From: Micromonospora nigra
GTDB lineage: Bacteria > Actinomycetota > Actinomycetes > Mycobacteriales > Micromonosporaceae
Length of the DNA: 64,000 nt
Assembly: GCF_900091585.1 (NCBI RefSeq)
Contig: NZ_FMHT01000003.1
Location: 1,240,001-1,304,000, forward strand
Reading direction: 5' to 3'
Part shown: piece after piece, positions 52,784 to 55,472 of the stretch
Layout: every line of letters starts with the position of its first letter
Numbering within the stretch: position 1 is the stretch's first letter
Notes under the pieces: model-generated
Told to the model about the DNA's origin: nothing
The model's database searches: none
Seen by the model: the letters and a program-made list of their open reading frames with translations, nothing else
Translations under genes and position numbers: made by a program

Positions 52784-54070
52784 CTAGGGGGTCAGGCGGT
52801 GCAGGTCGCGAGGGAACGCGGTGACCTCCCGGACGTTGGCCGCGCCGGTCAGGCGGGCGACGAGGCGTTCCAGCCCGATCGCGAAGCCGCCGTGCGGGGG
52901 CATGCCGTGCCGGAACGCGTCCAGGTAGCCGGCGTACGGTTCGACCGGCTCGCCGCGCGCCGCCAGGGCGGCCAGGTAGTCGCCGTGCCGGTGCAGGCGC
53001 TGCCCGCCCGTGACCAGCTCCACGCCCCGGAACAGCAGGTCGAACCCGTTGGAGTACGCCGGCCGCGCCGGGTCGGGGTGGGTGTAGAAGGGCCGCTTCG
53101 CCATCGGGTACCCGGTGACGAAGAGGAACTCGCAGTCGTGTTCACGCCGCGCCCACTCCCCCAGGGCCCGCTCGTGCGCCGGGGCCAGGTCCGGCTCGTC
53201 GGCCGGTGCCCCGGCGATCGTCAGCGCCTCGGTGAAGTGCACCGCCGGGATCTGCGCCGGCACCTGCGGCACGGTCACCCCGAGGGTGGCCAGCGCACCA
53301 CCGGCCCGGTCGGTCACCGTGGCGAGCATCCCGGCGAGGGTGTCGCGCAGCACCCGCATGACGTCCCGGTGGTCGGTGACGAAGCCCAGTTCGGCGTCGA
53401 GCGACGTGTACTGGGCCAGGTGCCGGACGGTGTCGTGCGGCTCGGCGCGGAACACCGGCCCGACCTCGTACACCCGCTCGAACACGCCCACCATCAGCTG
53501 CTTGTAGAACTGCGGAGACTGGGCCAGGTACGCGGGCCGGCCGAACCAGTCGAGGGCGAACACGTCGGCTCCGCTCTCGGTGGAGGCACCCACCACCTTC
53601 GGGGTGTGGATCTCCACGAAGTCCCGGTCGTCGAGGGTGGCCCGGAAGCCGGCGACCGCCGCCGCCGAGACCCGCAGCGCCGCCGCCCGGGTCGGGTGGC
53701 GCAGGGCGACGGGCGCGTGGTCGAGCTGGGTGGGCAGGGTGGCGGTGAGCGCCGGCCGGTACAGGTCGAACGGCGGCGGCACGGCGGGCGGGCCGAGCGG
53801 TCGTACCGCCGGGTCGGTCAGCTCGACCCCGGCGGGCGCGGTCGGGTTCGCCACCACGGTGGCGGTCACCTCGACGACGGTCTCCTCCGGCAGCCGCTGC
53901 ACCTCGGCGCGTACGCCCGGGTCGGTGACCACGACCTGGCTGAGGCCGGCGGCGTCCCGCACGATCAGGAAGGCCACCGACTTGAGCAGCCGACGGCGGT
54001 GGACCCAGCCGGCGACCCGGACGGTCGCGCCGACGTGGGCGGTGAGCTGGTGGGACAGGATGCGTTGCAC
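52784..54070 (-). CDS. aspS: Archaeal/eukaryal-type aspartyl-tRNA synthetase, probably non-discriminating
   Basis: A 428-residue class IIb synthetase: N-terminal OB fold (VRVAGWVHRRRL, about 17-28) that reads the anticodon, then the catalytic domain with motif 1 region TPKVVGASTESGADVF, AQSPQFYKQLM, motif 2 FRAEPHDTVRHLAQYTSLDAE and motif 3 GFAIGLERL. It lacks the large insertion of the bacterial AspRS, so it is the short archaeal kind. His24 and Pro79 fall where non-discriminating enzymes carry His and Pro, so it may also charge tRNA-Asn (alignment by eye). GTG 54070 is chosen because GGAGGT lies seven bases upstream. A T-box leader precedes it. It could be a second AspRS; the usual copy is not in this window. 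Confidence 0.88.
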   Translation of the reverse strand: MQRILSHQLTAHVGATVRVAGWVHRRRLLKSVAFLIVRDAAGLSQVVVTDPGVRAEVQRLPEETVVEVTATVVANPTAPAGVELTDPAVRPLGPPAVPPPFDLYRPALTATLPTQLDHAPVALRHPTRAAALRVSAAAVAGFRATLDDRDFVEIHTPKVVGASTESGADVFALDWFGRPAYLAQSPQFYKQLMVGVFERVYEVGPVFRAEPHDTVRHLAQYTSLDAELGFVTDHRDVMRVLRDTLAGMLATVTDRAGGALATLGVTVPQVPAQIPAVHFTEALTIAGAPADEPDLAPAHERALGEWARREHDCEFLFVTGYPMAKRPFYTHPDPARPAYSNGFDLLFRGVELVTGGQRLHRHGDYLAALAARGEPVEPYAGYLDAFRHGMPPHGGFAIGLERLVARLTGAANVREVTAFPRDLHRLTP

Positions 54071-54341
54071 GGCGGTTACCTCCTCGGTGTCTCGCAACGC
54101 GATCCCCAGGGAGGTGTGGGCGAGCGGGAGCCTCGCGGTGCCACCACACCTTCGCCCCCGCGCGGCGGAGGCCTCGTTCGTCGCCTTTTCACCGGGGCCA
54201 GCCGGGCGGGGTCTACTGGGCGTGCGCTGTTCTTCCCGCAGCTCGGGAGGGTCTTCACGCGTCGGCGGCAGACCGCCTCGCAGCAGCCGGCGGCTCTCTT
54301 CAACTGACGGTCGACGCGCTACTCGGCTCCGTCACAGCTCT
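54071..54341 (-). promoter_or_regulatory. T-box riboswitch (translational type), specifier GAC
   Basis: On the minus strand a TAGCGT -10 (54354-54349) is followed by a leader with T-box features in order. AGTA (54323-54320) and CGCGTCG (54318-54312) pair with CGACGCG (54264-54258), then GAA and specifier GAC (54253-54251, Asp). AAGAGAGCC and GGCTGCTGCGAG form the distal stem I. The T-box TGGCACCGCGA is at 54143-54133; its TGGC bulge fits the GCCA end of tRNA-Asp, discriminator G73. GGTGTGG can pair with CCACACC (antisequestrator), while ACCTCC (54115-54110) can pair with the GGAGGT ribosome site (54083-54078). Confidence 0.85.
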
Positions 54342-54466
54342 GGCGGGCACGCTAGCACCGCACGCCCCTCGGCGTGACGGCGTTTTCTCGGCTCCGGTGT
54401 CCGGCGTCACAGCAATCACGGCGTGACGGCGGTCGCCCGATGTGCATCGACCGCCACCGACGGGCG

Positions 54467-54472
54467 TAGGCT
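54467..54472 (+). promoter_or_regulatory. -10 hexamer TAGGCT of a probable leaderless promoter
   Basis: TAGGCT lies seven bases before the lipA GTG; the divergent synthetase promoter is about 115 bases away. Confidence 0.5.
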
Positions 54473-54479
54473 CGGTTCC

Positions 54480-55472
54480 GTGACGATCGAGCACTCCGCG
54501 CCGACGACCGGCCAGGCAGCGCGCACCGCGACGCCCGCCCCCGAGGGGCGGCGCCTGCTGCGGATCGAGGCGCGCAACGCCGAGACCCCGATCGAGCGCA
54601 AACCGCCGTGGATCAAGGTCAAGGCCAAGATGGGCCCGGAGTACACCCAGCTGCGCGGGCTCGTCTCGCGCGAGGGCCTGCACACGGTGTGCCAGGAGGC
54701 CGGCTGCCCCAACATCTACGAGTGCTGGGAGGACCGCGAGGCGACCTTCCTCATCGGCGGCGACCAGTGCACCCGGCGTTGTGACTTCTGCCAGATCGAC
54801 ACGGGCAAGCCGGCCGAGTTCGATGCCGACGAGCCGCGCCGGGTGGCCGAGTCGGTGGCCGCGATGGGCCTGCGCTACGCCACCGTCACCGGCGTCGCCC
54901 GCGACGACCTGCCCGACGGCGGCGCGTGGCTGTACGCCGAGACCGTCCGGCAGATCCACGCCCTCCAGGCCGGTTGCGGCGTGGAGTTGCTGATTCCCGA
55001 CTTCAACGCGGTGCCCGACCAGCTCGCCGAGGTGTTCGGCGCCCGGCCGGAGGTGCTGGCGCACAACGTCGAGACGGTGCCCCGGATCTTCAAGCGGATC
55101 CGCCCGGCGTTCCGCTACGAGCGGTCCCTCGACGTCATCCGGCAGGCCCGCGCCGACGGCCTGGTCACCAAGAGCAACCTCATCCTGGGCATGGGCGAGG
55201 AGCGGGCCGAGGTGTCCCAGGCGCTGCGCGACCTGCACGACGCCGGCTGCGAGCTGATCACGATCACGCAGTATCTGCGGCCCACCCCCCGCCACCACCC
55301 GGTCGCGCGGTGGGTCAAGCCGGAGGAGTTCGTCGAGCTGCGCGAGGAGGCCGAGGAGATCGGCTTCGCCGGCGTGATGAGCGGGCCGCTGGTGCGCTCG
55401 TCGTACCGGGCCGGCCGCCTCTACCGGCAGGCCCTGGACGCCCGCGCGTCGCAGGCCGTCGTCGCCCGCTGA
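54480..55472 (+). CDS. lipA: Lipoyl synthase
   Basis: A 330-residue radical SAM enzyme that inserts two sulfurs into octanoyl groups. The radical SAM cluster motif CTRRCDFC and the auxiliary-cluster cysteines in [13 protein letters not shown] are intact, and the C-terminal SSYRAGRLY, which supplies the serine ligand, is present. The GTG at 54480 is favoured by the adjacent -10. It depends on Fe-S supply, which the nearby erpA and desulfurase genes might provide (inference). Confidence 0.95.

Follow-up and report, generated by a model that had tools for sequence, protein, structure and literature searches.

The question raised by this locus is how the aspS2 gene of Micromonospora nigra, which encodes an archaeal-type aspartyl-tRNA synthetase (AspRS2), may be controlled by the DNA in front of it. 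In the window, by which we mean the whole 64-kb stretch that was analysed (64,000 nt), lipA (lipoyl synthase, 54423-55472, plus strand) is divergent from and upstream of aspS2, so that the leader described here fills the intergenic region shared by the two genes. Sequence reading placed this leader at approximately 54341-54071 (minus strand, ~270 nt), from a TAGCGT motif to the aspS2 GTG. The original prediction had read it as a T-box with an Asp specifier, and all of the elements that it named were found in the minus-strand sequence of the window (Table 1). The answer reached here is that, very probably, a tRNA-Asp-specific T-box controls the translation of this second, archaeal-type AspRS and turns it on with uncharged tRNA-Asp.

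Table 1. Features of the aspS2 locus, in window coordinates.
Feature	Coordinates	Strand	Basis or remark
aspS2, archaeal-type, predicted non-discriminating AspRS, 428 aa	52784..54070	(-)	NF003483, PDB 1n9w
TAGCGT, putative -10 element	54349..54354	(-)	transcript start expected near 54341
Stem I: AGTA/GAA specifier loop, AGAGAG and GGCTGCTGCGAG distal motifs	54246..54330	(-)	RF00230 match, covariation
Stem I strands CGCGTCG/CGACGCG	54318-54312 / 54264-54258	(-)	sequence reading
AGTA	54323-54320	(-)	sequence reading
AGAGAG, distal motif of Stem I	54299-54294	(-)	sequence reading
GGCTGCTGCGAG, distal motif of Stem I	54288-54277	(-)	sequence reading
GAA-GAC	54256-54251	(-)	sequence reading
Specifier GAC (Asp)	54251..54253	(-)	directly after GAA; identical in 113 distinct full-length leaders
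Stem II (GCGGG/CCCGC with GAAGAAC, AGTAGA) and stem IIA/B region	54186..54239	(-)	RF00230 alignment, limits by eye
Stem III (GCCTCCGC/GCGGGGGC)	54154..54172	(-)	RF00230 alignment, limits by eye
Antisequestrator: A1 GGTGTGG/CCACACC, bulge TGGCACC, A2 GCGAG/CTCGC	54113..54150	(-)	pairing and covariation
Bulge TGGCACC	54143-54137	(-)	sequence reading
Anti-SD ACCTCC	54110..54115	(-)	pairing with SD counted across relatives
Shine-Dalgarno (SD) GGAGGT	54078..54083	(-)	seven bases before GTG at 54070
Helix X, candidate sequestrator hairpin: TCCCG (54129-54125) with TGGGG (54108-54104)	54104..54129	(-)	partial pairing support
Helix Y (candidate): GCGTTGC, partner GCAACGC (start codon base 3 to codon 3)	54094..54100, partner 54068-54062	(-)	association

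AspRS2 scored 525.5 bits against the NCBIfam model NF003483 (aspartate--tRNA(Asn) ligase, cut-off 353) and 332.9 against TIGR00458, below the cut-off of 368.4. The Pfam domains were tRNA_anti-codon (OB fold) and tRNA-synt_2 (class II core) only; the bacterial GAD insertion domain was not listed by Pfam. The best solved relative was the non-discriminating AspRS2 of T. thermophilus (PDB 1n9w), over residues 3-428, which agrees with the archaeal type proposed originally. At two aligned positions AspRS2 shares His and Pro with 1n9w and 1wyd, whereas 3nel has Trp and Lys. We take His and Pro at these two positions, common to the M. nigra and T. thermophilus enzymes, to be marks of non-discriminating enzymes, and the archaeal-type AspRS2 is predicted to be non-discriminating. 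An ordinary bacterial AspRS is encoded at C3:5308094-5309833, distant from aspS2, which makes AspRS2 the second AspRS of the genome; the bacterial AspRS family was present in 198 of 200 genomes of the host family (Micromonosporaceae; the "family genomes" below), the source genome included. An AsnRS over the cut-off was found in none of the 21 genomes searched (source genome and 20 relatives), and GatB was found in the source genome. Asn-tRNA should therefore be made through Asp-tRNA-Asn, and since no AsnRS exceeded the cut-off, the ordinary AspRS is expected to be non-discriminating as well. AsnRS is present, by contrast, in T. thermophilus and D. radiodurans, according to the accessible part of PMC4206432. 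A third gene, shorter and resembling class II synthetases of the D/N type, was seen at G000 C3:5720246-5721166; it matches positions 132-452 only of the AsnRS model, with 142 bits, under the cut-off.

A default cmscan search of the 64-kb window with the Rfam T-box model RF00230 gave no match at the gathering threshold, because the gathering score of this model is 93 bits, a score reached in 0 of the 200 family genomes. When matches were listed by E-value, 54344-54113 (minus strand) matched the model over positions 1-219 of 219 with 57.1 bits (E = 6.2e-12, below the gathering score), so that the covariance-model check suggested in the original prediction returned a full-length match. Of the seven matches listed in 54000-54450 it alone was strong, the other six having E-values of 0.69-7.5. 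Across the full 6.36-Mb genome (three contigs) its E-value was 2.0e-11, and the single further match at E up to 10 (L002, 18.9 bits, E = 0.14, with a short Stem I and ATC) lay before a frame named by eye as IleRS-like; the ordinary AspRS gene had no RF00230 match in this whole-genome scan at E up to 10. At E 0.01, RF00230 matched in 163 of the 200 family genomes, independently of the hand-made patterns used below, and the 32 matches whose DNA was inspected stood some at AspRS2 and others at IleRS-like genes.

AspRS2 exceeded the NF003483 cut-off in 151 of the 200 family genomes. Upstream DNA was examined for the 148 genes among the matches listed (the window, 30 loci and 117 fetched stretches), and the T-box core TGGNA[CT]C[GA]CG was found upstream of 145 of these 148 distinct genes. 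Of these 145, 113 had a full-length GAA-GAC leader, 30 a shortened 5' part, and two a Stem I interrupted by a repeat. Among the three genes lacking the core, L287 has enough upstream DNA and L284 likewise, the protein of L284 groups with genes from outside the family, and for L291 only 38 nt of upstream DNA exists. The sampled family members that carry aspS2 thus appear nearly all to keep the switch. Proteins 72-91% identical to AspRS2 were encoded at 80 named loci, mostly in Micromonospora but also in Plantactinospora, Actinoplanes and their kin, in a comparison from which the source genome's own records were possibly left out. In a sample of 396 genomes of the phylum, 11 matched NF003483 at E 1e-80; ten of these were over the cut-off, and two are family members. 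None of the nine AspRS2 genes outside the family had TGGNACC in the 600 nt upstream, and within this sample T-box control of aspS2 is, as judged from these upstream regions, a putative trait of the family. In L289 and L290, from genomes of the same genus, a short GGTAGAGGAAGGGCCCCTTCTTAAC-like repeat was seen inside Stem I with the 3' parts intact, and perhaps the same GGTAGAGGAAGGGCCCCTTCTTAAC-like repeat is in Stem I of L054 and L105.

Helices of the leader were compared among these relatives. For Stem I, 80 of 92 distinct full-length segments were used (12 with ill-set ends were dropped, and the ill-anchored L207 was kept), and 14 of the 18 predicted pairs changed on both sides while staying paired. 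Paired cells amounted to 95.0%; shuffles gave 83.5% and slid registers 29-49%. The covariation score was 0.399 versus 0.185, with 0 of 500 shuffles as high, these shuffles ignoring kinship. In the antisequestrator (92 distinct sequences) 99.0% of cells were paired and both-side changes occurred in four of 12 pairs; in shuffles that likewise ignore kinship, four changed pairs were reached in 15 of 500, and the 33 changed cells (mean 6.6) in 0 of 500. The pairing and the compensatory changes of Stem I among relatives disfavour an origin by chance. The homologue comparison that the original prediction had called for thus turned up compensatory changes, and these, in Stem I and the antisequestrator, together with the RF00230 match, bear out its identification of a T-box. 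Single-sequence folding went the other way, as the minimum free energy structure of the whole leader differs from the T-box fold and lacks excess stability (z = +0.97, with 79 of 100 shuffles at least as stable). With a family-model match, a specifier loop whose codon fits the gene, a UGGN bulge and covarying helices, the aspS2 leader is a real, full-length T-box.

The putative -10 element is common among the relatives as well: of the 89 parsed full-length leaders, 79 have TANNNT no more than 36 nt before the point where GACGG..GAGTA begins, and in a control stretch lying further upstream it was seen in 0 of 85. A strict sigma-70 scan gave no promoter match at the leader.

GAC follows GAA in 113 of 148 leaders, all of recognisable full-length form, a class defined by GAAGAC itself, and no full-length leader with another codon was found among the 148 AspRS2 upstream regions. 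A codon-blind pattern read GAC in 105 of 111 rows; the six other readings were three false anchors (with GAAGAC elsewhere in the leader), two short forms, and L290 with its broken Stem I. The Asp specifier of the original prediction therefore held in all 113 full-length leaders, without the variation to other codons that would have spoken against it. The tRNA scan gave 49 matches in the genome, 30 of whose loci were fetched, and the tRNA-Asp (GUC) and tRNA-Asn (GUU) genes both have G73. The bulge is TGGC in the window leader, which bears out the proposal that C lies opposite G73 of tRNA-Asp; in the family it is TGGC in 118 of 145 leaders and TGGT, where a U-G pair is possible, in 27. Both bulges are able to face G73, with the discriminator base as in the source genome.

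AspRS2 is predicted to charge both tRNA-Asp and tRNA-Asn, and a leader that senses both was therefore considered; its GAC might recognise tRNA-Asn (GUU) too, with a single G-U pair. We regard this as unlikely. The G73 shared by the two tRNAs and the probable route to Asn-tRNA by way of Asp-tRNA-Asn (AsnRS over the cut-off in 0 of 21 genomes, GatB present) would suit it, and in C. acetobutylicum the T-box of a transamidation operon reads both tRNA-Asn and tRNA-Glu (Saad et al. 2013, as described in the accessible text of PMC4052509). That two-codon T-box is likewise linked to tRNA-dependent amidation, but it is described there as transcriptional, whereas the aspS2 leader has an Asp codon; no full-length leader with AAC was found, and GAC, the Watson-Crick choice for tRNA-Asp, stands in all 113.

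Shortened leaders were found in genera g9, g16, g17, g19, g23, g39, g40, g42 and g44 and in two genomes of g29. In the 30 shortened leaders a GAC in a small hairpin is tentatively taken as the specifier; it was set by eye and by the pattern TGAC[AG] in the hairpin, which chance can give, and the hairpin chosen by the script was clearly wrong in several rows. A quick protein tree was built from 54 rows, taken selectively from the 148 and joined by outside genes, with L340 left out; on it the short form requires five changes, at least two of them forced by well-supported branches. In g29, g18 and g31, 38 of 41 full-length leaders have 48-65 nt between specifier and T-box, scarcely enough space for Stem II. 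Pattern-based assignment of Stem II is approximate, having missed it in seven of 34 same-genus full-length leaders whose spacing (at least 110 nt) fits.

Such reduced leaders in several lineages, together with L289 and L290, which keep the gene though a repeat breaks Stem I, would fit an inherited RNA in decay, or one whose stable antisequestrator keeps the gene always on. The computed energies lean the same way: in the window the antisequestrator has -17.1 kcal/mol and the OFF-state parts are smaller (local hairpin -3.3, helix X -2.8 and SD pairing -8.7 kcal/mol; the best fold of the helix X piece has -4.9 kcal/mol), so that the OFF state is not clearly favoured by energies. A dead leader would scarcely have preserved such strong covariation in Stem I, however, and the specifier is constant in full-length leaders; the odds of a decaying or constitutive leader are therefore judged to be low.

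The level of control was read from the 3' part of the leader. The antisequestrator runs at its 3' end into TCC, and the resulting ACCTCC can pair with the SD. Contiguous SD/anti-SD pairs numbered at least six in 98 of 146 rows, five in 30 and four in 16 (one gene counted twice), and two of the 146 rows had no recognised SD. Each strand is a base shorter in L269, where complementarity is retained (CACTCC/GGAGTG). Attenuation of transcription, by which the leader would end or continue the transcript and the ribosome site would not be hidden, is how most annotated T-boxes act according to the accessible part of PMC7583486, but it is improbable here, as no terminator-like site was found in 54000-54500 on either strand, the leaders inspected have no long T run after the antisequestrator, and the SD complement lies at the end of the antisequestrator. 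With no terminator and an SD that can pair with ACCTCC, control is most likely at the level of translation, the level named in the original prediction.

Under translational control by a tRNA-Asp-specific T-box, uncharged tRNA-Asp would pair with the GAC specifier in Stem I, and the G73-CCA at its 3' end with the TGGC bulge. This contact would hold the A1/A2 antisequestrator and keep its 3' strand (...CACACCUCC) off the ribosome site. Once tRNA-Asp is charged, the 3' strand would be released, perhaps to be held in the loop of helix X, and would pair with GGAGGU and close the ribosome site. AspRS2 synthesis would then set in whenever charging of tRNA-Asp by the ordinary AspRS falls short. Computation shows the element with its conservation, covariation and specifier, the G73 of tRNA-Asp and the existence of a second AspRS; from these we infer the tRNA binding, the direction of the switch, the translational level and the role of an inducible back-up.

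The candidate helix X would enclose A2', A1' and the anti-SD by joining the C run of the A2 loop to the G run just after A1'; examples in relatives are CCCAAA/TTTGGG, CCCTT/AAGGG, CCCGA/TCGGG and CCCTTC/GAAGGG. Pairing was counted in 65 distinct types, which omit L278 and two without the C/G core (L215, L239), against shuffles that ignore kinship. Both positions beside the C/G core paired in eight of the 65 (shuffle mean 1.07, a count reached by 0 of 5000). Taken by itself, the first flanking position paired in 51 of 65 (mean 45.5, reached by 62 of 5000 shuffles), and 33 of these pairs were Watson-Crick (mean 28.7, reached by 729 of 5000). The whole-helix score was not significant when compared with permuted tails (own 12.84, permuted 12.70, with 116 of 400 reaching the former). 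In 142 of 144 rows 3-6 nt separate A1' from the G run, a geometry by which helix X could hardly coexist with the full antisequestrator; it should therefore belong to the OFF state. As a lead, helix X with the SD pairing would form an H-type pseudoknot sequestrator.

A second lead is helix Y, a candidate pairing of the leader with codons 1-3. All 106 distinct leaders that contain GCGTTGC are followed by GCRACGC at the gene start, as are 15 of the 39 that do not, kinship being uncontrolled. Among 79 named genes, Gln at codon 2 was CAA in 72 of 72, and their other Gln codons were CAG in 719 of 765. CAA at codon 2 is kept in some leaders without GCGTTGC, which may point to a general effect of the start region instead of helix Y.

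A joint reading of these observations is tentative, and we hold it to be less probable than its negation. The aspS2 leaders would be a natural deletion series of one orthologous T-box, in which a Stem I of ~85 nt gave way to a small GAC hairpin, on several occasions according to the best tree, and some members lack Stem II; the smallest forms would hold little beyond the specifier hairpin, Stem III and the antisequestrator. The OFF state would be the H-type pseudoknot, with helix X presenting the anti-SD, beside its own 3' strand, to the SD, and AspRS2 could replace an inhibited ordinary AspRS. Since the family has leaders that keep and leaders that lack the distal part of Stem I and Stem II before the same gene, the need for each T-box module is testable in one orthologous set, and the pseudoknot sequestrator, if true, would be another way for a T-box to hide the ribosome site. 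Induced AspRS2 could also give tolerance to AspRS inhibitors. In the distant phylum genome of L298, the AspRS2 gene starts directly after a frame that by eye resembles an NRPS carrier-protein domain, a position that would fit a self-resistance enzyme.

The original prediction knew of no described aspS T-box in this group, and no report of an actinobacterial aspS2 T-box turned up in a literature search with poor coverage of subscription papers. TBDB scanned the actinobacterial reference genomes, as stated in the accessible part of PMC7778990, and its tables may list these leaders. In C. acetobutylicum one of three aspS genes is T-box controlled (PMC2494555, accessible part); there, too, the T-box sits on one of several AspRS copies, but these Firmicutes belong to another phylum and the survey, as far as its accessible text goes, treats anti-termination. 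An Asp-specific T-box on a second AspRS of foreign type suggests that the mechanism holds a spare synthetase in reserve.

The actinobacterial T-boxes found in the literature sit before ileS and are translational (Seliverstov et al. 2005, accessible part of PMC1262725). Judged from that text, the aspS2 leader has in common with them the lack of a terminator and, as predicted here, a hairpin that hides the SD, and differs in its GAC in place of ATC, in the gene it precedes, and in the full-length Stem I of the window copy. The source genome, like the genomes with ileS T-boxes, has the weak RF00230 match before an IleRS-like gene (L002). Other T-boxes of the family were seen before genes that by eye are IleRS-like (L113, L114, L117-L120, L123, L126-L128, L130, L133, L139-L141), most of them with a long Stem I and with ATC (Ile) after GAA.
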